Origin: a virus
DNA: 24,994 nt
IMG/VR virus record: IMGVR_UViG_3300034101_000268
Coordinates: 1-24,994 of that record
Strand: one strand, 5' to 3'
The translations under genes were made by a program, and so were the position numbers. Below, in pieces: positions 1 to 13,564 of this stretch. The notes under the pieces are model-generated. The model had not been told where the DNA came from and did not search any database. It saw nothing but the letters and a program-made list of their open reading frames with translations. Position 1 is the first letter of the stretch. Every line of letters begins with the position of its first letter.

Positions 1-26
1 GAATCTCATGGAAAACACCTACTCAA

Positions 27-42
27 GTGGTAACGTTACCAC
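27..42. promoter_or_regulatory. Perfect 16-bp palindrome, candidate operator
   Basis: GTGGTAACGTTACCAC is a perfect palindrome ending 24 bases before the -35 box of the early promoter. The identical 16 bases recur at 12028-12043. An uninterrupted two-fold symmetric site beside a promoter fits binding of a dimeric regulator. The ribbon-helix-helix protein at 4978-5283 is the only candidate regulator in the window, and that link is inference. Confidence 0.6.
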
Positions 43-62
43 CTAGCAGTTAGGTTGCTAGG
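42..62. promoter_or_regulatory. Inverted repeat upstream of the early promoter
   Basis: CCTAGCA (42-48) and TGCTAGG (56-62) are perfect inverted 7-mers separated by 7 bases. The repeat lies between the 16-bp palindrome and the -35 box at 67. It could be a second operator. No T-run follows, so it is not a good intrinsic terminator. Confidence 0.45.
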
Positions 63-66
63 GGTG

Positions 67-95
67 TTGACAGATGCATTTCTGCCTGATACATT
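67..95 (+). promoter_or_regulatory. Sigma70-type promoter for the early operon
   Basis: A consensus -35 box TTGACA (67-72) is followed after 17 bases by TACATT (90-95), a 4/6 match to TATAAT. Transcription would start near 102 and leave a leader of about 50 bases before the ATG at 152. The two symmetric elements immediately upstream support a regulated promoter. No other promoter this good was seen by eye. Confidence 0.65.
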
Positions 96-151
96 GTACC
101 CCAAGTCATCAGTCAGACGGTGGCTTAATCAACCAACATAGGAGAGTAAAC

Positions 152-811
152 ATGTCTGTCAAGGAAGAAACCTGCATCATCACCCCGCCCAAGTTCGGGG
201 TCACCGACTTCTTCATCGAGGGCACTGCGCCGCTGGTGGTGGAGCGGTTCAGCAAGAAGGCCGAACTGATGGCCAAGATGGCCGAGGGCCAGTCAGCGAA
301 GAACAAGAAAGTCCGCGATGCACGGGACTACGACAAGGAAGCAGAAGAGGCCCGCTACCGCAGTGGCGAAGGTTGGGAAGGCATGAACGCCGCAGCATTC
401 CGTGCCGCGATGATCAGTGCCTGCCGCTTGGTCGGATTCAAGATGACCCTTGCAAAGTTGTCAGCGTTCGTTGAGGCCGATGGCTTTGACAAGAACGATG
501 GAGTTCCTCTGGTTCGTGTCTACGGCCAGAGCCATGTGTACACCGCTCATACCCGCAATGCCACGGGCGTGGTCGATGTGCGTTCCCGTCCCATGTATCG
601 CAACTGGGCTGCGCGTCTGCGCGTCCGGTACGACATGGATCAGTTCAAGATGGCCGATGTCTTGAACCTTGTCTCCCGGTGCGGGATGCAAGTGGGTATC
701 GGTGCAGGTCGTCCCGACAGCAAGGCTTCTGCCGGATGCGGGTTCGGTCTGTTCCAAGTGGTGCCGTCTGACCGCGAGCAAGAAGTGGTCAAGAAGTACG
801 GCATCCAGTAA
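152..811 (+). CDS. Conserved phage protein of unknown function, first early gene
   Basis: The 219-aa product begins at the ATG at 152, preceded by AGGAGA at 140-145. An in-frame ATG at 74 lies inside the promoter and is not used here. The sequence opens with MSVKEETC, has a hydrophobic beta-type segment (GTAPLVVERFS) and a charged lysine-rich stretch. It ends with a conserved-looking segment containing GMQVGIGAGRPDSK and GFGLF. I recall similar proteins encoded near phage recombination genes but know no assigned function. No enzyme motif, signal peptide or membrane segment is visible. It is the first gene after the promoter, and the stop codon is followed immediately by the GG-repeat array. 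A DNA-recombination or DNA-binding role is possible from context only. Confidence 0.85.
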   Translation: MSVKEETCIITPPKFGVTDFFIEGTAPLVVERFSKKAELMAKMAEGQSAKNKKVRDARDYDKEAEEARYRSGEGWEGMNAAAFRAAMISACRLVGFKMTLAKLSAFVEADGFDKNDGVPLVRVYGQSHVYTAHTRNATGVVDVRSRPMYRNWAARLRVRYDMDQFKMADVLNLVSRCGMQVGIGAGRPDSKASAGCGFGLFQVVPSDREQEVVKKYGIQ

Positions 812-1990
812 GGCAGGCTAGGCCGGGCCTCGCTCGGCGAGGTCTGGCAAGGCGAGGCAGGCCTGGGACGGCCAGGATCGGCCAAGCGAGGCTCGGCGAG
901 GTCCGGCCAGGACCGGCAAGGCAGGCGGCGCAGGGCACGTTAAGGAACGGCTGGGTATGGCGAGGCAGGCACGGCGGGGACCGGCACGGCACGACCTGGT
1001 GAGGCGGGGTCTGGCGCGGCAAGGCAGGCAAGTCGGGGCGGGGCTTGGATCGGACCGGACAGGCAGGCATGGCACGGCACGGCAAGGTCGGGCGGGGTGT
1101 GGTCAGGCAAGGCAGGCGAGGCATGGGTTGTCATGGTTCGGATAGGAGGGGCGACGTAGGGCAAGGCAGGCCAGGATCGGCCGGGCAAGGCGTAGTCTGG
1201 TCTGGAAAGGCCCGGCTGGGCGGGGTACGGCAAGGCAGGCAACGACTGGAACGTTGAGTTCTGGTGAGGCCCGGTACGTTCAGGCTAGGCAGGCTTGGTG
1301 TGTCATGGAATGGTACGGAGAGGTCGGGCGTGGTGTGGCAAGGCAGGCATTTATCTCCCTATCGTGGCGGGGCAGGCATGGAACGTCTCGGCAAAGCGGG
1401 GCCAGGATAGGCAGGGCAAGGCAGGCATGGCTCTGCGGGGTAAGTCGGGGCTAGGTCAGGTTTGGCAGGTGTGGCGCGGCTAGGCTAGTTGCGGCTCAGA
1501 GCGGTGAGGCATGGCGAGGATGGGCAGGCTAGGGCTGGCCCGGCTTGGCGTGGACACGCGGGGCTAGGTAAGGCCGGTGAGGCATGGCTAGGTGCGACGT
1601 GGCACGGCGCGGCAGGCAAGGCAACGTGTGGCGAGGATGGTCGAGGTCAGGCAACGCAGGCATGGAAGGGCGCGGCAATGTGCGGCGAGGCAGGGCTTGG
1701 TACGGCAGGTAAGGACAAGCGTGGTGCGTCTTGGATTGGCCTGATGTGGAGAGGCAGGTGAGGCGAGGCTGGGCAAGGCATGGTGCGGTGTGGACCGGAC
1801 TGGCAGGCGAGGTGTCGCAAGGCGTGGCGCAGCGAGGAACGGCAAGGCTAGGCAGGTAAGGCAGGGCTTGGCCGAGTATGGAACGGCGAGGCAGGCGAGA
1901 AGAGGCATGTCCCGGAGCGGTCTGTTCTGGATCGGCGAGGCAGGTAAGGCGCGGCTAAGAGTCGTTGGGTGAGGATTGGCAAGGCAGGCA
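812..1990 (+). repeat. Two-level GG-pentamer array, 24 blocks of 5n+4 bases, non-coding
   Basis: The whole interval between two early genes is a degenerate pentamer repeat of the form GGNNN on the + strand. Cut by hand into cells from 816 to 1986, it gives 239 cells, and 199 of them begin with GG. Where GG is lost, the spacing still holds. The register slips at 4-base cells: GGCA in 22 of 24 cases, GGCC at 1572-1575 and CGCA at 1655-1658. These divide the array into 24 blocks of 44, 64, 44, 59, 39, 49, 54, 69, 54, 54, 29, 49, 44, 59, 49, 39, 44, 49, 49, 49, 49, 39, 49 and 44 bases. All are 5n+4 and 49 is the commonest. The block end usually reads GGCAAGGCAGG or close to it. Open frames exist on both strands but reflect base composition. 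The array starts at the stop codon of the gene before it and ends about 15 bases before the next ribosome site. Confidence 0.9.
1349..1358 (+). promoter_or_regulatory. Possible anti-Shine-Dalgarno island inside the array
   Basis: ATTTATCTCC (1349-1358) lies in the only 20-base stretch of the array without GG (cells 1346-1365). As RNA it could pair with GGAGATAGAT at 2002-2011 over 10 positions, nine Watson-Crick and one G-U. That would cover the ribosome binding site and spacer of the next gene. The pairing is visible in the sequence; a regulatory role is inference, and chance complementarity is possible. Confidence 0.3.
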
Positions 1991-1999
1991 TTTAAACCA

Positions 2000-2006
2000 A
2001 AGGAGA
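2000..2006 (+). promoter_or_regulatory. Strong ribosome binding site deciding the start at 2012
   Basis: AAGGAGA stands about 6 bases before the ATG at 2012. This selects that start over the in-frame ATG at 1976, which lies within the repeat array and would add 12 residues of repeat-derived sequence. Confidence 0.75.
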
Positions 2007-2011
2007 TAGAT

Positions 2012-2467
2012 ATGGAATTGGAACGGAAATATCTGACACAGATCGCCAAAAAGAACGGCGGTATGTTGATGGTCGATCAAGTGATCGAACTGGCGCGGGA
2101 TGAAGACAGCATCCTGCACAAGCACTTCACTTGGGATGACACCAAAGCGGCAGAGGCGTACCGCAAGCAAGAGGCCCGGGCGCTGATCCAACGATGCAAG
2201 ATCAGACTGGTCGAGAATGAGCCAGTAGAGATCCGTGCTTTCGTCAGCCTGCCCACTGATCGTGAGAACGGCGGCGGCTACCGCCTGACCACGTATGTCA
2301 TGGGCGATGACGGCATGAAGGACGAACTCCTGCGGGACATCAAGTTGACCATCCAACGGTGGAACAAGAAGTTGCACCTACTGGATCAAGACTTGGCTGA
2401 ACTTCTCTTGGCCGTTGAGGAGAAGTTGGCAAAGAGGGGCGGCGATGAGGACAGGGCTGCGGCATGA
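2012..2467 (+). CDS. Small conserved phage protein, unknown function
   Basis: The 151-aa product starts at the ATG after AAGGAGA. It is charged and probably mostly helical. Its N-terminal third carries the segment ILHKHFTWDDTKAAEAYR, a pattern I recall from other phage early proteins without known function. The C-terminal third is rich in Leu, Glu and Lys and could form a helical or coiled-coil segment. No catalytic motif, cysteine cluster or membrane segment is seen. Its stop overlaps the next start as ATGA (2464-2467), so it is probably translationally coupled to the exonuclease-like gene. It is the first gene downstream of the GG array, so the array transcript would form its 5' leader. Confidence 0.85.
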   Translation: MELERKYLTQIAKKNGGMLMVDQVIELARDEDSILHKHFTWDDTKAAEAYRKQEARALIQRCKIRLVENEPVEIRAFVSLPTDRENGGGYRLTTYVMGDDGMKDELLRDIKLTIQRWNKKLHLLDQDLAELLLAVEEKLAKRGGDEDRAAA

Positions 2468-3375
2468 AACTGACCAACAAGTTCAACCTTCCTCAGACGT
2501 TCATCAACGTCATCCATCGTCCGACCTACAGCAAGGGCGAGTCCCACATCTCAGCCACTGAGTTGTTGACCTCACCCCGGATCGTGCAGCTCAAGCACAA
2601 GCACTGGGAGGAGTTGGAGACTGATGCGTCTGAGATGGTGTGGCAACTGTTTGGCTCCGCCGTCCACGGCATCTTGGAGCACGGCAAGGACGATCACCAC
2701 ATCGTTGAGCAGCGCCTGTTCACCGAGTACGAAGGATGGACTCTGTCAGGTCAGATGGATCTTCAGGAAGTCTTTGAGGACGGCATCATCATCTCCGACT
2801 ACAAGGTCACTGGCGCGTGGTCGGTGATGAATGAGAAGCAGGATTGGCATAACCAACTGAACGTCTATGCGTGGCTGATTGCTAGGGCCAAGGGCGTACC
2901 CGTCAAGGGCGCACAGATCATCGCCATCATCCGCGACTGGTCGGCCCGTGAAGCACAGACCAAGGAAGGTTATCCTCCGTCCCCCATCGCAACCATCGAG
3001 ATCCCTCTGTGGTCGTATGAGGAGCAGGAAGCCTACATCAAGAGCCGTCTGGCCCTGCACAACGAAGCGTACTTCGCTACCCATGCCGGTGGAGATATGC
3101 CCGAGTGCACAGCAGACGACATGTGGGAGAAGAAGACCAGTTACGCCGTCAAGAAAGACGGCAACGTGCGAGCCAAGAGTGTCCATGAGACACGCGAGGC
3201 AGCAGACGAAGCCCTCGCCCAGGCGCAATCAAAAGCCAAGAAGGGTGAGAGTTTCGTCTTGGAAGTGAGAGAAGGTGAACGAACGCGGTGCAAGTCGTAC
3301 TGCCAAGTGAGCCAGTTTTGTAACCAGTATCAGACCTATCTGAAGGAAAAAGAAAATGCAAGTCAACCTGAGTAA
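2464..3375 (+). CDS. PD-(D/E)XK exonuclease of RecB/Cas4-like type
   Basis: The 303-aa product has the RecB-nuclease motifs in order. GSAVHGILE (64-72, His68) is motif I. GQMD (96-99) supplies an acidic metal ligand. SDYKV gives the D112-x-K114 catalytic pair. Q131 in QLNVYAW is the Q motif. Cysteines at 215, 276, 280 and 286 (the last three as CKSYC and FC) could bind an iron-sulfur cluster, as in Cas4 and AddB-type nucleases. Whether all four do is inference. Such phage nucleases resect duplex ends to give single strands for an annealase, and a Sak3-type annealase lies two genes downstream. The start overlaps the previous stop as ATGA. Confidence 0.85.
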   Translation: MKLTNKFNLPQTFINVIHRPTYSKGESHISATELLTSPRIVQLKHKHWEELETDASEMVWQLFGSAVHGILEHGKDDHHIVEQRLFTEYEGWTLSGQMDLQEVFEDGIIISDYKVTGAWSVMNEKQDWHNQLNVYAWLIARAKGVPVKGAQIIAIIRDWSAREAQTKEGYPPSPIATIEIPLWSYEEQEAYIKSRLALHNEAYFATHAGGDMPECTADDMWEKKTSYAVKKDGNVRAKSVHETREAADEALAQAQSKAKKGESFVLEVREGERTRCKSYCQVSQFCNQYQTYLKEKENASQPE

Positions 3376-3661
3376 CGAAGACATCAAGACCATCGTCAGC
3401 GCCCTTGTCAGCCGTCCGTGGTTGGAGGTCAATGACCTGATGACCAAACTCACCGGACCGCAAGTCGCACACATTGATCTGTTGACCAGTACTACTGATT
3501 CGCAGATCGCCCACAGTGGGAAGGTGGAAGTGCTGACGCTGCCGGTTCTGGATCTGCCGCAGACCGATGCGCCCTACGGCCTGAAGAAGGACGGCACCCC
3601 TGCCAAGCGCCGTGGTCGTCGCCCCGCTGTTAAGAAGACTGCACGAAAGGCCCGTCAATGA
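3356..3661 (+). CDS. Small protein with basic C-terminal tail, unknown function
   Basis: The 101-aa product begins 20 bases inside the end of the nuclease gene, after an AAGGA-type ribosome site. The N-terminal 50 residues look helical and amphipathic. The C-terminal 30 are strongly basic, with KRRGRRPAVKK resembling an AT-hook or generic nucleic-acid-binding tail. No known domain is recognised. Its place between exonuclease and annealase genes, and its ATGA overlap with the next gene, suggest a nucleic-acid-associated accessory role. That is context only. Confidence 0.8.
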   Translation: MQVNLSNEDIKTIVSALVSRPWLEVNDLMTKLTGPQVAHIDLLTSTTDSQIAHSGKVEVLTLPVLDLPQTDAPYGLKKDGTPAKRRGRRPAVKKTARKARQ

Positions 3662-4311
3662 GCAACCTGCAATCCGTCAACATGAATGAACTCCTTGAGA
3701 AGAAGGGCAACCTGTCCTACCTCTCTTGGGCACACGCATGGGGCGAGGCTCTGAAGATTGACCCCGCCGCTACGTTTCATGTATCAACCTTTGATCGCGG
3801 AGATGGCGTCACTCAGGTCTACATGGATGTCAATGGGACCGCGCTCGTATGGGTGACGGTCACCATGAACGGCAAGCCCATGACCTGCCAGTTGCCCGTG
3901 ATGGACAACAAGAACAAGGCCATTACCAATCCCGATGCCTTCGCTGTGAACACCGCCATCATGCGGTGCATGGTCAAGGCAATCGCGTTGCACGGCCTCG
4001 GTCTGTACGTCTACAAGGGCGAGGATCTGCCGGATGAGGATGCCAAGGAAGACAAGCCTGCGCCCAAGCCCAAGGTCGAGCCCAAGCCCCAACAGCGGGA
4101 CTGGACTGTCAAGGTCAATGAAGGGCCGGAGTGGGTAAGCGATGTCTGCGTAACCACAGCAAAACTGTTGGATCAGACAACGTCCAAGGCAGATGTCATG
4201 CAGATCTTCCAAGTCAACCGCGCTCAGTTCGACAAACTCAAGACCGCGAGTAAGTCTGACTACGATGACCTGATGTCCGTGTTTAAGCAAATGAAGGAGA
4301 AGTTCGCATGA
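3658..4311 (+). CDS. Sak3/DUF1071-type single-strand annealing protein
   Basis: The 217-aa product carries two hallmarks I associate with the DUF1071 (Sak3) phage recombinase family. One is an N-terminal NLSYLSWAHAWGEALK segment at about residues 18-33. The other is AVNTAIMRCMVKAIALHGLG followed by LYVYKGED around 98-126. A Pro/Lys linker at about 131-146 joins a small helical C-terminal segment. Sak3 proteins anneal complementary single strands during phage recombination. The neighbours fit: an exonuclease two genes upstream and an SSB-like protein directly downstream. It is coupled to both neighbours by 4-base overlaps. Confidence 0.85.
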   Translation: MSNLQSVNMNELLEKKGNLSYLSWAHAWGEALKIDPAATFHVSTFDRGDGVTQVYMDVNGTALVWVTVTMNGKPMTCQLPVMDNKNKAITNPDAFAVNTAIMRCMVKAIALHGLGLYVYKGEDLPDEDAKEDKPAPKPKVEPKPQQRDWTVKVNEGPEWVSDVCVTTAKLLDQTTSKADVMQIFQVNRAQFDKLKTASKSDYDDLMSVFKQMKEKFA

Positions 4312-5893: not shown

Positions 5894-6716
5894 GATCGAA
5901 GGACCGACCTGTATCTCATTTTCAGGCGGACGTACCAGTGCCTACATGCTGTGGCGTGTGCTTCAGTCTAACAACGGATTGCCTGAAGAAGCAATCGTCT
6001 GTTTTGCTAATACGGGCAAGGAAGATGAGGCAACATTAAGATTTGTTGATCGGTGCAGCAAGGAATGGAATGTGCCGATCACTTGGGTCGAATACGCCGA
6101 AGCGCCGGAAACCAAAGACCGCTTCCGGGTGGTTAACTTTGAGACTGCCAGTCGCGATGGCGAACCATTTGAAGCCATCATCCGCAGGCGCAACTACCTT
6201 CCCAATCCCGTCAGCCGCTTCTGTACGGTTGAGATGAAGGTACGCGCCATCCATCGCTACCTCAAGAGTATCGGCTGGACGGAGTGGGATTCCATGCTTG
6301 GCATCCGAGCAGATGAGCCGCGCCGTCTAGCAAAGATCGGCAATCAAGACTACGGCAAGCATGAGGAGAAGGTCGCTCCTCTGGGCCGGGTCGGCATTAC
6401 CAAAGAGATGGTCGGCGCATTCTGGGAGTCTCAGCCGTTTGACCTAGAACTCCCCAATATCGGCGGCGTTACCTACCACGGCAACTGCGATCTGTGCTAC
6501 CTCAAGGGCGCATCCCAGATCCTCAGCCTGATTGCTGAGAAGCCGGAACGCGCCATATGGTGGATGAAGATGGAGTCTCTTGCCCTGTCTTCTGCGCCAT
6601 CCGGTGCGAAGTTCAGAACAGATCGTCCGTCCTACGCCCAGATGGCATCCTTCTCCAAGAACCAGATGGACATGTTCGCCGATGACGAAGGCATCCCCTG
6701 CTTCTGTGGCGACTAG
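5877..6716 (+). CDS. PAPS-reductase-like PP-loop enzyme
   Basis: The 279-aa product has an N-terminal PP-loop, SFSGGRTS (14-21), the ATP-pyrophosphatase signature of the adenine nucleotide alpha-hydrolase/PAPS-reductase superfamily. Further family-like segments are CFANTGKED (42-50), FCTVEMK (115-121) and LGIRADEPRR (141-150). Cysteines at 116, 204, 207 (CDLC), 275 and 277 (CFC) could hold an iron-sulfur cluster, as in the DndC and TtcA branches. Phages often carry such genes, with roles proposed in sulfur transfer or nucleic-acid modification; the substrate here cannot be read from sequence. It is the last + strand gene, and its stop overlaps the stop of the convergent giant gene. Confidence 0.75.
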   Translation: MSDPFKIEGPTCISFSGGRTSAYMLWRVLQSNNGLPEEAIVCFANTGKEDEATLRFVDRCSKEWNVPITWVEYAEAPETKDRFRVVNFETASRDGEPFEAIIRRRNYLPNPVSRFCTVEMKVRAIHRYLKSIGWTEWDSMLGIRADEPRRLAKIGNQDYGKHEEKVAPLGRVGITKEMVGAFWESQPFDLELPNIGGVTYHGNCDLCYLKGASQILSLIAEKPERAIWWMKMESLALSSAPSGAKFRTDRPSYAQMASFSKNQMDMFADDEGIPCFCGD

Positions 6717-9700
6717 AGTTGCGCCTTCTCTCTCAGACCCTTGACGTTGATTGACTTGTAGATCTGATCTTCAATCTGCCGGAGTTGACGGATCGCATCC
6801 GCCTTCTCCGCGCCAGTCATCATCGTCGTCGGGGCTTCGGTGATCTGACGGATACGCGCCCGTAGTTCAGCCAACTTCTGGTTGACGTTCTCCACCTGCT
6901 TGTTCACGACTAAGCGGGCCATCCGCTTCTCATCCTCAAGGTAATCCTTGATGCCTTGTGGATTGTTCTTCTTGATGTCGTTGAACGTGGCAGCAGCGGT
7001 GTTCACCTTGTCCCGCAACTCATAGAAGTCCGTGCGCAGGGCAGACTCATTCGTCCTGCTGAGGAATCCGCTCGTGCCAGGGAACGCCTCGATAGCCTCA
7101 CGCCAAGTCTTCTCCGGCGCCGCAACGCCTGTCAGACCAGACTTGTTGATGGCAGTATTGGTGAACCACAGGAACAGCCCGCCAGTCGTTCCGAAGAACC
7201 CACGGAACAGGTGATCGGCCATGATGGGAGACACCGCGCCTGTCTGGCCAAGCAGTTTGGAGATCTCAGAAGTGCTCTCATTGAACTGCCTCGACCACTC
7301 CTTCTGCTTCTCGTACTGGCCAAGAATAGGTCTGGCTTGGTAGAAGTCGTAGTTGATCAGTGCTTCCACAGCAGGCTTGGCCAACTGCGGCACCAGCGTC
7401 GGGCTGAACAGCGCCTCACCCAGTGCGTTGATCATTGACTTGCGGAACTTGGCACCATCCTCGTAACCCTTGTCGGTCATCAGCAGATAGGTGTGCTCAG
7501 CAACAATCTTGGGGAACAGGAAGAAGTCCGTGCGCAGGGGGATGCGCAGTCCACCAGTGCCCGGGATCGTCAGCGTGCGATCACGGATTGCCGCCGGGGT
7601 CTTCTTGTAGTCCTCATCGTCTGCGGCCATCATGGCGTACAGCATGGACAGCGTCATCACCGCAGCAGACGTGTACATCAGCGTCTTCCATGCGGCCTTG
7701 CGGTCCTGCGGAGAGATGCCCGTACCCGACAGGGTGTTGTACGCCACACGCTGAGCAGCGAGGTACGCATAGAAGAACGGGATCGTCTGACCCGCCAACT
7801 GGAACATCTTGTTGGTTCCACGGCGACGGAAGTTGATGATCTCGAAAGCCTTCTCCAGAGCCTCTGCTTTGGACAGGCCCTGCTGAACCGATGCCTCATA
7901 CACCGCCTGCCGGATGGAGTTGTCCGCAGACATGGCAATGTGCTGGAGGTACTCCTTTATCTTGCCCTTGACACCAGGCGGAGCCTTGATACCGGCAAAC
8001 ACTTCCGCATCATCACGGATGACGGAGGAGTTGAAGTCACGAACGCCAACAGCACCAAACCTCTTCAGAACCTGATGCGTCTCACTAGACTTGGACAGGG
8101 TCTTGATGAACTCCTTGACCGCCAAGATGGGGATACGCAGTGCGTACTGAGGCTGTAGGCCAGAGGAGAACATGGCGGCAAACGCGTCCTGCGGAACCTG
8201 AGCCACAGAGAACAGCGGGAACAGCACCACCGAATCACGCAGGGTGTTGGCCACCTTGGAGAACCAGTTCAAAGGCTCAATGGCAATCGACTGGATACCC
8301 GTGAACGCATCAGCGAACAGCGGGTCAGCCATGTTGTAGAGTTCTTGCTTGCCGTCACGCCAGATGCGCACGACGTTCATCCCGCGCTCTGCCTTCTCTA
8401 CACGCTCGGCCATCTTGGTGCCGTCGCCCATCTCGATCTTCAGGGCAGCATCAATCATCCGCACGGCCTTGTCGTTGCGGACAGAACGGTTGACCGCGTA
8501 TTGCGTCCACCGAACCATGTTGTCAAGGATGTCGTTGACCGGCTTGTTCGTGCCCTTGAGTTGATGCTCCTTGGCTTGGACCTGAAGACCACGGACGAAC
8601 TCGCGTGGGCCTTGGCCTTCTTCCAGTTGAACCTCCCGGTAGAACGGGACGTAGTCGATCACATCCAACATCTGGTCTGCGTACTCATCAGTCCACAGGC
8701 CGCTGTTGACCAGCACACGGCGGGCGTTGCGACGGATGCCGTTCCAAGTATCAGCAACCCCGTTCAACTCAGGCATCATCTCGCCAAGCGACAGACCCAG
8801 TTCGATCTCAGGATCAGCCAAGTGGATGAACGCCTCACGGTCCTTCAGGCGCTCGATCTCACGGTTGATCTTAGCCTTCTCATCCTTGGTCTTGGCGACA
8901 TCACGCTCGGCCTTAAGTTCCTCAATCCGTGCCTTGTCATTCTCGTTGCGCTCTTGCAGGGAACGCAGGCGCTTGGACATGAAGTACGTATGCGTGATAC
9001 GGCGAGCCTCGTCCTCGGAGATGTTGTACTTCTTGGCGATCTCGTTGATCTGCTTGCCGAGTTCCACGAAGTTGTCCGGCTCCTTGTAGGAAACCCACTT
9101 CTTGTATTCCTCGTCGTAGCGCAGTCCGCCCTCGATGATGAACTGGCTTGCGAGCGCGTCAGCATGGACGGCCTGAGACTGAGAAGCATCGATCAGCATA
9201 CCGATGACTTCTTCGTTCTCCTTGATATCAGCCGCCACAGCACGGCGCAACTGGTTGTCAAACGCAGAACTGGATGAGAACGTGGCCGTCTCAAACTTAT
9301 CCAAGAAACCAGTGGTCGCCTTCTTGGCAGATTCAACGGTCAACTTCGGATTGTCCAGAGCGGTCTTGACATCCTGCTTGGCCTTCTGGAATGCGCTAGG
9401 CGCAGGCGGCTGAACACCCAAGCCCATCTTGTCGATGATGTCAACGGCCCGGGCACCAACGTTTCCTTTGCCAGCAACAGGCTCTGCTACCTGTTCGTAC
9501 AGAAACTGTTCTATTGGTGCGTACTGCACATCTTTGGCAAGCAGGAAGTTGCCGATCTGATACATCTCCGATGCCGATTCGACAGGTTCTTTTGTCTCGC
9601 GGTCATAGAAGTAGCCATGACGGGTCGGATCAAAACCGATTTGCCTCCAGTTTGGATTGCGCATCAGTTCCTTAACCCGAGCAAACGCTTCTTCAGGAGG

Positions 9701-12700
9701 CACATTTACCCACGTGCCTTCAACCGTTTGCAGGGGGAACTTGTCTTGCCCAGCCGCTACGGCCAGACCTCTGGCCTGTGACCTGGGCTCAAAAGTCACA
9801 TCCTTGATGTACCCCGTGCCGAGATAACTCAGCAACGAACCTCTGTTGGGCTTACCCGCCGCTCCTTCGTGGACTGACACAACCGGCGTGTTATGACGAA
9901 CCCGCGCCTTGATGTCCATGCGCAGACCGACCTTGGTCCCATCAGGAATGGGGCTGTCAACAAACTTCTTGAGGTTTGCATCAATCGCATTGTTGACTTT
10001 GTCAATAGATGCTGGTGGCTCAAGCACGCCCTCATCGATGGTGACTATTGGTTTATAGAAGTTGACGTAACGGTCATACTCCTCACGGCTAATCTCGCCT
10101 CTTTGCAGGGCTTGAGCAGCGGCAGTAACTTGAGAGTGACGGCCCTTCTTTTCAGGAATGTTGGCCGTATCCAACACAGGCGGTTGCTCAGGCTCTACCG
10201 GAACCGTTTCATACAAGAACTGCTCTTTGGGAGCGTACGTAACGTTCTTGGCAAGCAGGAAGTTGCCGATTTGGAACATCTCGTCAGCGGATGCAACTGG
10301 CTCTTTGTTCTTACGGTTGTAGAAATAACCGTGGCGAGCAGGGTCAAAACCAACTTGAACCCAAGCCGGATCATTCATCAGTTGCTTGACCCGCTCATAT
10401 ACCTTGGCAGGATCCATGTTGACCCACACGCCTTCAGCCGTCTGCAAAGGATTCTTGGCGGGGGTCATCCCCATGATCAAGCCTTTTTCTTGATCACGAG
10501 GGGCAAAGAACACATCCTTAATGTATCCAGTGGATGAGTAACTAATCCGCTCGGCTGCGGTTTTGTAAGGCTTGCCAGTTTTTGGATCGTTATTGGATCT
10601 ACCTTTGTGGATAGATACTATAGGCACGCCCTTCTTCAAAGCCGGAACATCCATGCGCAATCCAACACGAGCGCCATCGGCAATTGGCACTCCCAAGAAT
10701 TGCTTATCGTTTGCACGCAAAGCATCTCGCATGCGATCCATTGTTGAAGGCGGCTTTAGTTTGTCTGCTTCAACTTCTTGGATTGGCGTGTAGTAGTTAA
10801 CGTACTTATCAAATTCTTCGCGTGACAACTTGCCCTGCTGAAGAAGTTTGGCTGCTGCTTGAACTTGCGGATGACGGCCCTTTGCCGGGGTCACTCCTGT
10901 CTCATCCAAAACAGGCGGTTGCCCAGGGGCTGTTGGTTCTTTTGGCGCGGCAGGAGGCTCCTCTGCCTTTGGCGGCTTAGGAGGTGTCGGCTCTTCAGCC
11001 TTGGGAGGAGTGGGAGCCTTTGGCAACTCAACGCGAGGAGCAGGCGCTCCCCTCATAAGTTGAGCGCCCCTGAGTTTGATGCCCATTCCCTTTTCCATTT
11101 CGGAAACGGGGGTGGACAGCAGGTTTTCCGTTGAGCGCATCAACGAATCAAGGGCCGTCTCAAACTCAGGGTTGATGTTGAGCAGCTTGCGCATGATCTC
11201 AACAAACTTGGTGAACGCCGTCTTGTTCCCAACCTTTATGCCGGAGAGATAGTCTTGGAAGTTCTTGTCTGTCAGACCCCAAGCAATCAACTCGTCCACG
11301 CTTTGCATGGTGTTGGCACCACGCTTGATTCCTTCAAGAGCCGGGTGTTGCACGCCGTTCTTGATGTCTGTCTTTACCTGAGCCTTGACGCGGGCATATA
11401 GGTTTTCCAGTTCTTTTACTGGCTTGCTCTTGGGGTTAAACCTGACCTCAAGGATCGTGGCCGCATGCAGCAACTCATGCAGGATGGTCGAGTACTGCGT
11501 CCCAGTGAGGCCATCAGCAACACCGTTAGTCGGGATGCCGTTGAGCATCAGCGACATATCGAAACCTTGCTTCAAGTCTCGATAGTGCCTGTATGTCACT
11601 CGCCCACGGGTACCGCTCTCATTGCGGATACCGCCGTTGAGCACTTGAATCTTGCCAGGGAAGATCCCACGGTCAGCGAACTGATTGATCCGGTCAAACG
11701 CTTTGAGCGCGAACTGCCTAGCCGGAGTATTGGGTGCGTTTATCACAGCCCAACGCGCCAGTTGAGGGATGGTCATTCCCTGCACATCCTTGGCAATCTG
11801 CTCCTTTGGCGTGTCAATCTGGAACTCACGCTTCTCCGGCGGAGTCGGCAGACCAGTCGGCTCTTCAACGGGGATAGCGGGCGGCTCCGGCGACTTCGGC
11901 TCATCCACGATTGGGGATGGAGTCGAGGTGTCCCGAGGAGGCTCACCACTGGGCTGATCAATCGTCGGATCAGTAGGTGTAGCGCCAGGCGCCACAGGCG
12001 GTGCAGCAGGCGGTGCGGGAGGTGTGGGTGGTAACGTTACCACTTTGGGCAGCGCAAGGATGGCCTGCCGGTTCTTCCCGTATTCCTGTTGGAGCGGGTT
12101 GAAGATGTTGACCTTGAAGTCCTTGTACGCGTTGACCGCTTCCTGACGTTGTTCAGGCGTCAGGTCACGGCCACGGGTGAGATTCTTCAGCAGGTCAAGC
12201 TGCTTCTTGGCTTCCTGAAACCGGGTGTTCAAGTCACGAAGACCGGCTTCATCCAAAGGCCCAGCCGCAGGCTCAGGCGCCTTTGCAGTCGGGGCAGGCT
12301 CCACACCCGGCTCGACGGTAGGCTCAGTCTTCGGTGTCAGCGCATCAATCTGCGGACGGTACTTGGAGAACTCCAACCGCAGGGGGGCAAAGATGTTGTT
12401 CTTGAAGTTGATGAACGATTCAATCGCCGCCTGCTTGGCCTCTGGCGTCAGGTCAGGAGCCTTGGCCGCATCAGCCAATTTTTGCAACTCGTTCTCTGCC
12501 TCGTTGTACCGATCCCGCAGAGAAATCAGTTGGTCCTCCGGCAACTTCTCAATCGGAGCCTCTGCTTGGGGGGCTGCCTTTTGACGGCCAAACGGTGACA
12601 CCACACCACCGGTCAGCGCACCAAGCGCCGCATCCCGGGCAGCAGATCCCAACACACCTTCAAACTCAGGCGTCTCAATGCCTTCACGGGACAAGGCAAC

Positions 12701-13564
12701 GTTGGAAGCAAACTGTTCTTGGCCACCTTGCAGACCCTCGGGGATACCTTCCCTCAAGGCTTCCTTCACGCCGCGCATGATGAGGCCCTCAGCCTCTTTC
12801 TTCGCAGCGCCTGCGGCCAGATCAACGCCCATCTTCTTGGCAACATAGTTACCCAAGATCTTTTCCGCACCAGTACCACCGGCAAGCGCACCAAGACCGG
12901 CCCCGACAAAGATGTTGTCAGTGTTGTTTCCGATGTAGTCCTGAGCGGCTTCTGCCTGCCTCTTGGCATCCACGTCGGAAATGCCTTGGTTACGGAGTTC
13001 CCGGTAGACGTTGTCGTAGATGGAACCCTTGACCTCACCGGCGCCCTGCAAGGCACCAAACAGGAATCGCGTACCAATACCGACAGCCGTGGCAATACCC
13101 AACGGTGCACCGGCCACCAAGGCAACAGCGCCCGTCAGCAGAGCCGGAACAGTAGAGCCAATACCTTGGGCAATAGACTGAACTGGCGCTTCTTTGATAC
13201 CGCCAAGGAATGCGCCGATCTCTTCAGCGGCGGTGCCAGTCTTAGCAGCCTGCTGTTCAATCGCGGTACGACGGGCGACTTCAGCCTGACGCTCAGGCGT
13301 GCGCATTTCGAGCAGGGATTTCTGGATCCCGCCCAACGTCTCAACCCCGGGAGCCTCCGGCCCAAACGCTTGCAGTACGGATTTACCCGCACCAGCAACT
13401 GCCGCCGCGCCTGTCAGACCGACATCGGCCAATGAGAACGGGGCAGGAGGCTGAGCCTTCGGTTGATTCTGATGGGTATAGACCGCCCAGTTCCATGCGG
13501 TCTGTTCATCAGGGGCCTCTACTTCGTACTGAGCACCTTCTACCGCTACGGCGTACTTAGGCAT
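6713..13564 (-). CDS. Giant virion protein (large polyvalent protein) with zincin motif
   Basis: The 2283-aa product is far larger than its neighbours and modular. In order: an N-terminal domain; a hydrophobic Ala/Gly segment (138-176) that could contact membrane; two copies of a roughly 70-aa helical unit (about 340-408 and 435-505); a Pro-rich linker (about 506-582); and a zincin metallopeptidase motif HELLH (696-700). Two diverged copies of a roughly 225-aa module follow (about 896-1120 and 1141-1361), then long charged helices (about 1530-1580). A C-terminal region with PFFYAYLAAQ near 1928 and IPGTGGLRIPLRTD resembles the LPD38 domain of large polyvalent proteins. Such proteins are packaged in the virion and ejected with the DNA. 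The start is the ATG next to the upstream stop, with 6 bases between them. The function is inferred from domain order. Confidence 0.85.
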   Translation of the reverse strand: MPKYAVAVEGAQYEVEAPDEQTAWNWAVYTHQNQPKAQPPAPFSLADVGLTGAAAVAGAGKSVLQAFGPEAPGVETLGGIQKSLLEMRTPERQAEVARRTAIEQQAAKTGTAAEEIGAFLGGIKEAPVQSIAQGIGSTVPALLTGAVALVAGAPLGIATAVGIGTRFLFGALQGAGEVKGSIYDNVYRELRNQGISDVDAKRQAEAAQDYIGNNTDNIFVGAGLGALAGGTGAEKILGNYVAKKMGVDLAAGAAKKEAEGLIMRGVKEALREGIPEGLQGGQEQFASNVALSREGIETPEFEGVLGSAARDAALGALTGGVVSPFGRQKAAPQAEAPIEKLPEDQLISLRDRYNEAENELQKLADAAKAPDLTPEAKQAAIESFINFKNNIFAPLRLEFSKYRPQIDALTPKTEPTVEPGVEPAPTAKAPEPAAGPLDEAGLRDLNTRFQEAKKQLDLLKNLTRGRDLTPEQRQEAVNAYKDFKVNIFNPLQQEYGKNRQAILALPKVVTLPPTPPAPPAAPPVAPGATPTDPTIDQPSGEPPRDTSTPSPIVDEPKSPEPPAIPVEEPTGLPTPPEKREFQIDTPKEQIAKDVQGMTIPQLARWAVINAPNTPARQFALKAFDRINQFADRGIFPGKIQVLNGGIRNESGTRGRVTYRHYRDLKQGFDMSLMLNGIPTNGVADGLTGTQYSTILHELLHAATILEVRFNPKSKPVKELENLYARVKAQVKTDIKNGVQHPALEGIKRGANTMQSVDELIAWGLTDKNFQDYLSGIKVGNKTAFTKFVEIMRKLLNINPEFETALDSLMRSTENLLSTPVSEMEKGMGIKLRGAQLMRGAPAPRVELPKAPTPPKAEEPTPPKPPKAEEPPAAPKEPTAPGQPPVLDETGVTPAKGRHPQVQAAAKLLQQGKLSREEFDKYVNYYTPIQEVEADKLKPPSTMDRMRDALRANDKQFLGVPIADGARVGLRMDVPALKKGVPIVSIHKGRSNNDPKTGKPYKTAAERISYSSTGYIKDVFFAPRDQEKGLIMGMTPAKNPLQTAEGVWVNMDPAKVYERVKQLMNDPAWVQVGFDPARHGYFYNRKNKEPVASADEMFQIGNFLLAKNVTYAPKEQFLYETVPVEPEQPPVLDTANIPEKKGRHSQVTAAAQALQRGEISREEYDRYVNFYKPIVTIDEGVLEPPASIDKVNNAIDANLKKFVDSPIPDGTKVGLRMDIKARVRHNTPVVSVHEGAAGKPNRGSLLSYLGTGYIKDVTFEPRSQARGLAVAAGQDKFPLQTVEGTWVNVPPEEAFARVKELMRNPNWRQIGFDPTRHGYFYDRETKEPVESASEMYQIGNFLLAKDVQYAPIEQFLYEQVAEPVAGKGNVGARAVDIIDKMGLGVQPPAPSAFQKAKQDVKTALDNPKLTVESAKKATTGFLDKFETATFSSSSAFDNQLRRAVAADIKENEEVIGMLIDASQSQAVHADALASQFIIEGGLRYDEEYKKWVSYKEPDNFVELGKQINEIAKKYNISEDEARRITHTYFMSKRLRSLQERNENDKARIEELKAERDVAKTKDEKAKINREIERLKDREAFIHLADPEIELGLSLGEMMPELNGVADTWNGIRRNARRVLVNSGLWTDEYADQMLDVIDYVPFYREVQLEEGQGPREFVRGLQVQAKEHQLKGTNKPVNDILDNMVRWTQYAVNRSVRNDKAVRMIDAALKIEMGDGTKMAERVEKAERGMNVVRIWRDGKQELYNMADPLFADAFTGIQSIAIEPLNWFSKVANTLRDSVVLFPLFSVAQVPQDAFAAMFSSGLQPQYALRIPILAVKEFIKTLSKSSETHQVLKRFGAVGVRDFNSSVIRDDAEVFAGIKAPPGVKGKIKEYLQHIAMSADNSIRQAVYEASVQQGLSKAEALEKAFEIINFRRRGTNKMFQLAGQTIPFFYAYLAAQRVAYNTLSGTGISPQDRKAAWKTLMYTSAAVMTLSMLYAMMAADDEDYKKTPAAIRDRTLTIPGTGGLRIPLRTDFFLFPKIVAEHTYLLMTDKGYEDGAKFRKSMINALGEALFSPTLVPQLAKPAVEALINYDFYQARPILGQYEKQKEWSRQFNESTSEISKLLGQTGAVSPIMADHLFRGFFGTTGGLFLWFTNTAINKSGLTGVAAPEKTWREAIEAFPGTSGFLSRTNESALRTDFYELRDKVNTAAATFNDIKKNNPQGIKDYLEDEKRMARLVVNKQVENVNQKLAELRARIRQITEAPTTMMTGAEKADAIRQLRQIEDQIYKSINVKGLREKAQL
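9485..10878 (-). repeat. Duplicated protein module inside the giant gene
   Basis: Two tandem copies of a roughly 225-residue module lie at about 10205-10878 (first in the protein) and 9485-10143. Both begin GRH.QV.AAA and SREE(F/Y)D(K/R)YVN. Both continue with VGLRMD, STGYIKD or GTGYIKD, LQT.EG.WVN, GFDP.RHGYFY and QIGNFLLAK. By eye about half of the positions are identical. Codons in this stretch look richer in A/T than in the flanking parts of the gene. This suggests the module arrived separately and then duplicated, though no composition was computed. Confidence 0.8.
12028..12043. promoter_or_regulatory. Second exact copy of the 16-bp palindrome, within a coding region
   Basis: GTGGTAACGTTACCAC here is identical to the element at 27-42 upstream of the early promoter. 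It encodes residues 508-513 (VVTLPP) at the start of the Pro-rich linker of the giant protein. It uses GTA and TTA codons, which look uncommon in this G+C-rich gene. No promoter was found beside it. Its role is unknown: candidate protein-binding site, decoy, or recombination or looping partner of the first copy. Confidence 0.55.
12050..12545 (-). repeat. Second internal duplication: paired helical units
   Basis: Two roughly 70-residue units share the pattern DLTPEA/QR-QA, A-x5-FKxNIFxPL and a preceding heptad-like helix. They correspond to about 12340-12545 and 12050-12262. They flank a Pro/Ala-rich linker and probably form helical spacers. Similarity is clear at protein level and weaker at DNA level, so this duplication looks older than the 9485-10878 one. 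Confidence 0.7.

Follow-up and report, generated by a model that had tools for sequence, protein, structure and literature searches.

The window analysed here, a stretch of 24,994 nucleotides of viral DNA (IMG/VR record IMGVR_UViG_3300034101_000268), almost certainly carries a phage-encoded VIPR locus of the order vipr, vrRNA array, vap, in which a transcribed array would yield one guide per GGCA-bounded block, each guide being coated by Vipr and directed to double-stranded DNA with a one-nucleotide skip, and in which the guide at 1169 would be aimed at integrases. VIPR (Viral Interference Programmable Repeat), a CRISPR-like weapon, is known from a preprint (PMC13142463; bioRxiv 2026.04.26.720920). 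According to it, the RAMP protein Vipr acts with vrRNAs built of GGY/NN pentamers, the NN bases recognise dsDNA with a 1-nt skip and competing elements are repressed; RNP formation, DNA binding and repression are reported there for VIPR. Our own observations concern the anatomy of the locus, the protein family, the statistics of the code, the guide boundaries and the integrase match. The cassette consists of the following features.

67 to 95, plus strand: candidate sigma-70 promoter of the vipr/array/vap operon, TTGACA-17-TACATT, with 10 of 12 positions in a consensus scan and TG before the -10 element; its function is putative
152 to 811, plus strand: vipr gene (P0001, 219 aa, phrog_4652, RAMP fold), assigned by family profile, AF2 and Foldseek
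812 to 815, plus strand: additional GGCA, the array opener
812 to 1986, plus strand: vrRNA array, 24 guide blocks of GGYNN cells, each ended by a 4-base cell (mostly GGCA)
1169 to 1237, plus strand: integrase guide, NN series CA TC CG AA GT CT CT AA CC TG GG AC AA
2000 to 2006, plus strand: ribosome-binding site of the vap gene (AAGGAGA region), seen in the sequence right behind the array
2012 to 2467, plus strand: vap-type partner gene (P0002, 151 aa, phrog_15946), mostly helical, assigned by co-occurrence and AF2

A pentamer array with register resets

The array begins one base after the TAA (809-811) of the upstream gene and stops about 22 bases before the next ATG. On the plus strand of 812-1990 the autocorrelation of GG at lag 5 is 0.124, compared with 0.043 for dinucleotide-shuffled sequence (z = 16). 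Peaks occur at 5, 10, 15 and so on, then at lags of the form 5n+4 (39, 44, 49 and 54; z 13-16, range about 39-59) and later at 5n+3 (93, 98 and 103), a shift that a one-base register reset per roughly 50 bases predicts. The GG pentamer array with register resets that a preliminary description of this DNA had reported is thus real, with peaks near 49 as that description expected. Its hand count is reproduced exactly by a dynamic-programming parse, which finds 24 blocks between 4-base cells, 29 to 69 bases long and all of length 5n+4, 49 being the commonest (8 of 24), with 5 to 13 full cells per block. Since lengths of 5n+4 are partly forced by any parse that allows one 4-base cell per block, it is the autocorrelation that provides parse-free evidence for the register.

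Tandem Repeats Finder detects no ordinary tandem repeat in the array, the copies being unlike one another, which agrees with the earlier view that this is not a fresh microsatellite and that spacing is kept while sequence varies. The suggestion of a structured non-coding RNA holds in its second half only: the array does appear to be a non-coding RNA, but the folding energies of its blocks are no better than those of shuffles. Covariance models from Rfam give no match in positions 1-3600 of the window up to E=1, and no structured 3' tail lies between the blocks, which abut with only GGCA in between. Among phages we found no near DNA relatives of the window. Two further ideas were discarded: the open reading frames inside the array are short and mechanical, and stop-bearing cells (for example GGCTA) are common, so that it is not coding; and a CsrA-type GGA sponge does not fit, A occupying the third cell position in only 8%.

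The array design recurs in phages and bacteria

When reset-spanning patterns were scanned over IMG/VR and over one-per-species genomes, the same design appeared in about 190 loci. These lie in phages, in prophages and in contigs of bacteria, with the labels Pseudomonadota, Actinomycetota, Planctomycetota, Bacillota and Chloroflexota, among others. Because these loci include isolate genomes of named phages, the assembly artefact that the preliminary description had named as a possible refutation is excluded. In a first set of 104 loci, the 9,203 five-base cells have G in 92%, G in 88% and Y in 89% of cases at their first three positions, followed by two N positions; the 4-base cells are mostly GGCA, and block lengths are overwhelmingly 5n+4 with modes of 49 and 54. 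The larger locus set has mostly 7-13 five-base cells per block (modes 10 and 9), with an information content of about 1.4-1.6, 1.3-1.5 and 0.7-0.9 bits in the GGY columns and of about 0.05 and 0.01 bits in the NN columns of interior cells. GGY is the scaffold, and the NN that follow are the code.

These numbers also bear on the proposal that the array is what remains of a 49-base tandem repeat after decay, its GG spacing being a leftover. The modal block length of 49-54 and the conserved GGCAAGGCA junctions would be in keeping with such an origin. However, block lengths change in steps of 5, no tandem repeat is recognised by TRF, and GG is kept in more than 9,000 cells from bacteria and phages while NN carry close to 0 bits and an adjacent vipr gene is conserved. 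On these comparative sequence data we regard the decayed repeat, which had been offered in the preliminary description, as already refuted, and we give it next to no credence.

Vipr and its partner

P0001 belongs to the Vipr family. Its family profile finds PDB 36pp, the Vipr protein of SUSP1, as the sole significant solved structure (E=6.6e-14; E=0.0043 in a single-sequence phmmer search) and matches the SUSP1 vipr ORF at 28474-29061 (E=1.1e-18). The AF2 model (pLDDT 92.5) leads Foldseek to RAMP chains of Csm, Cmr and Cas7 proteins (E about 4e-5, probability 1.0). A Vipr homologue adjoins the array on the same strand in 149 of 198 loci, mostly ending 0-20 bases ahead of it or one small gene off, and the P0002 family is present on the same strand in 138 of the 198. 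Gene order is variable (vipr-vap-array, vipr-array-vap, or array first), but orientation is constant, which argues for a transcribed RNA over a DNA site; the earlier claim that the array lies in one operon with its neighbour genes we count as correct. P0002 is predicted with similar quality (AF2 pLDDT 93); its model has no fold match in the PDB, and no homology of P0002 to SUSP1 vap1 is detectable.

The association also holds in the reverse direction, since six named phages chosen by the P0001 protein alone all have an array directly adjoining that gene (6/6). Their Vipr homologues, with the adjacent arrays, are as follows.

L299: Mycobacterium phage Saal, gp51
L300: Mycobacterium phage ByChance, gp40
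L301: Gordonia phage ODay, gp19
L302: Gordonia phage UmaThurman, gp39
L303: Gordonia phage Pipp, gp42
L298: Cyanophage Cy-LDV1, g34

The VIPR loci of these six phages had been unannotated. Several variations of the surroundings may be recorded here. A Lachnospiraceae contig (L193) has an array with a vipr gene on either side. The main Vipr family is replaced in L047 (ORF about 490-1170 bases upstream of the array) and in four further loci by a divergent RAMP-like protein next to the array (LLMHNPRMVDP..., IGDNRVNGYGRF), which by eye looks nearer the SUSP1 type. Directly downstream of the cassette in the window, positions 2464-4311 encode a PD-(D/E)XK exonuclease (P0003) and a Sak single-strand annealing protein, and VIPR is close to recombination genes in many loci. 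Farther on, the minus strand carries a 2,283-aa ORF (6713-13564), and among its neighbours on that strand are genes for an endolysin-like protein and for a virion structural protein.

The targeting code and the boundaries of guides

The preliminary description had overlooked that the variable bases are a targeting code and the resets guide boundaries. The code was examined with 253 arrays from the fetched loci, whose NN series were searched in 2.3 Mb of surrounding DNA with the arrays masked, allowing 0-3 skipped bases in forward and reversed order, so that skip 1 forward stands against seven controls. Exact matching of 8-10 cells was too weak to decide the code; scoring with extension was decisive. 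Matches scoring at least 18 number six for skip 1 and zero for the seven controls (skips 0, 2 and 3, and reversed order). At a score of at least 17 there are eight, against 0, 0 and 0 for the forward controls and 1, 1, 0 and 2 for the reversed ones, and these matches are not all independent events, since three arrays with a common target site are close relatives. All matches with a score of at least 17 open on the cell that immediately follows a GGCA reset, and none runs past the next reset. It follows that blocks are guides and resets their boundaries, which gives the window about 24 guides.

The targets are plausible ones, including vipr genes from other phages, genes for Sak4 recombinases and one for a DUF2800/exonuclease. 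In L197, a contig of Mycobacterium szulgai, one guide agrees over 11 consecutive cells, or 22 of 22 bases, with the vipr gene in a different, phage contig (L050:7467-8102), and to judge from these sequences this is VIPR against VIPR. Arrays L090, L078, L029 and L259 have a common target site in a Sak4-like gene (L046, around 996), and the L232 array is directed at a Sak4 gene of L264 and of L287; it may be that recombinases are targeted preferentially. The other 23 guides of the window gave no convincing target when most of them were compared with the 2.3 Mb of fetched loci and four also with IMG/VR, where guides 968, 1468 and 1757 have no match; three exact 8-cell matches of guide 1066 lie in unrelated genes and were taken as chance.

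It is conceivable that the array merely provides a DNA or RNA scaffold to a ring- or filament-forming protein, as TRAP does, with no targeting code at all. The 5-base spacing resembles that of TRAP sites in RNA, and a RAMP, from a family known for filaments on RNA, is encoded next door. However, the cassette is without a TRAP-like protein, and only with a 1-nt skip do the NN bases agree with actual phage genes, which makes a code-free scaffold very improbable. The related idea of the preliminary description, a filament protein of which each subunit touches one GG unit, agrees with a RAMP, Vipr, on vrRNA.

The closest array-bearing relative of the window, with a Vipr 94% identical, has one of 23 window guides in common, and relatives with Vipr 72-84% identical have none. 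Guides are replaced much faster than the Vipr protein changes, with near-complete turnover between close relatives.

A guide matching the integrase catalytic motif

Read with the 1-nt skip, the NN bases of 1169-1237 are antisense to the VPHGFRSTFRDW codons of tyrosine integrase box II (V-P-H-G-F-R-S-T-F-R-D-W); with ambiguities retained, the block decodes to V-P-H-G-F-(R/S)-(R/S)-T-F-R-(D/E)-W. Among 1,570 guide blocks, one decodes to the integrase motif, namely the window's own. In IMG/VR the guide matches exactly over 9 cells at two sites, each in a different integrase gene; both matches extend to 10 cells while the skipped (wobble) bases differ. A search of about 690 bacterial genomes for the 24-base gapped pattern, allowing up to 3 mismatches, gave 11 sites, of which 10 lie in integrases, identified with Pfam, and read (V/T)(P/T)HG(F/L)RSTFRDW. 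The best of them has 1 mismatch, at VPHGFRSTFRDW, owing to the choice of arginine codon. The reversed pattern gave 0 matches in the ~690 genomes, and the skip-2 control found nothing. Over viral contigs and bacterial genomes together, 12 of 13 near matches are integrases, the exception being in L309, not an integrase ORF. The integrases with this active-site motif belong to other phages and to genomic islands. No perfect 12-cell target was found in IMG/VR or the ~690 genomes, and since integrases are abundant, the match identifies the targeted gene family and not a particular rival.

This guide also helps to weigh a different reading of the VIPR locus, in which guides overlap and span the resets, each vrRNA being drawn from parts of two blocks and GGCA being an internal register shift. 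PMC13142463 does name staggered arrays with overlapping vrRNAs, and two adjacent RNAs could both make use of the bases that surround a reset (GGCAA GGCA GGC). However, the matches scoring at least 17 begin without exception at the first post-reset cell and stop no later than the next reset, and the integrase match starts at cell 1 and remains within its own block. We therefore consider overlapping guides unlikely, although worth keeping in mind, and retain the reading of one guide per block.

Proposed mechanism and meaning

By analogy with the systems of PMC13142463, we presume that the window locus is active. The array would be co-transcribed with vipr and vap and give rise to guides, one per block between GGCA resets, presumably through processing at GGCA. 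Vipr subunits, with their RAMP fold, would coat the RNA, one GGY per subunit, leaving the two N bases of each cell to pair with dsDNA; the target would move three bases per cell, with one base skipped at each step, and the skipped bases would tend to be codon wobble positions. Binding of Vipr and guide would then repress the target gene, as in PMC13142463. The 1169-1237 guide would be aimed at box II of tyrosine integrases, so that one role of the locus, at least, may be to hinder competing temperate phages or integrative elements that share its host.

An appealing scenario, to which we give slightly less than an even chance, is that vrRNA arrays punctuated by GGCA and lacking tails form a guide format of their own, its boundaries set by a 4-base cell in place of the structured tail, and that a wobble-blind guide to a universal motif (integrase VPHGFRSTFRDW) serves as a family-wide anti-integrase weapon, in effect reading amino-acid motifs and not one DNA sequence. 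Such family-wide targeting would be possible since wobble bases do not count in the code. Three points would be additions to the main text of PMC13142463: the boundary at GGCA, the guide against integrases and the near-complete guide turnover between close relatives. More generally, the analysis confirms independently, from metagenomic sequence alone and in a different array format, a very recent claim of VIPR and its gapped code. Guide boundaries can be read in the array, and the catalytic motif of integrases is a concrete, testable target. A number of "hypothetical proteins" prove to be part of VIPR loci, in cultured phages of Mycobacterium and Gordonia and in a cyanophage; the cultured phages are testable in laboratory strains now.

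Comparison with known systems

The RNA targets of TRAP have a 5-nt periodic motif, as does the window with its 5-base spacing. The window motif is GGY and not (G/U)AG, however, and no TRAP homologue is seen in the cassette. TIGR-Tas likewise comprises a phage-borne tandem guide array, but its abstract description sets it apart, the protein not being a RAMP and the array being different. Class 1 CRISPR-Cas systems, with their Csm3, Cmr4 and Cas7 backbones, have the RAMP fold in common with Vipr, as well as a guide-target pairing that is periodically interrupted by protein. In contrast, no CRISPR repeats, spacers or cas operon were found in the window, and its RNA has a 5-nt period and a discontinuous guide. 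CRISPR effector and adaptation families have no match among the ten window proteins scanned, save for a weak CRISPR-associated PHROG match of the PD-(D/E)XK exonuclease.

The closest likeness is to VIPR itself (PMC13142463), which comprises seven types and whose vrRNAs have 9-16 repeats. A Vipr RAMP, a same-strand GGY/NN pentamer RNA, a small partner gene, a phage host and the 1-nt skip code are common to both, as are targets in competing mobile elements, which in the window family are vipr, Sak4, exonuclease and integrase genes. The belief that no element of this design had been described was thus mistaken, VIPR vrRNAs having been in print since April/June 2026. The resemblance does not extend to every part, since SUSP1 vap1 and P0002 are unrelated in sequence. 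In the SUSP1 sequence, vrRNAs are isolated GGT-rich runs followed by tails. The type II system of SUSP1 has separate vrRNAs with structured 3' tails, whereas the window has about 24 guides arranged head to tail, punctuated by GGCA and tail-less.
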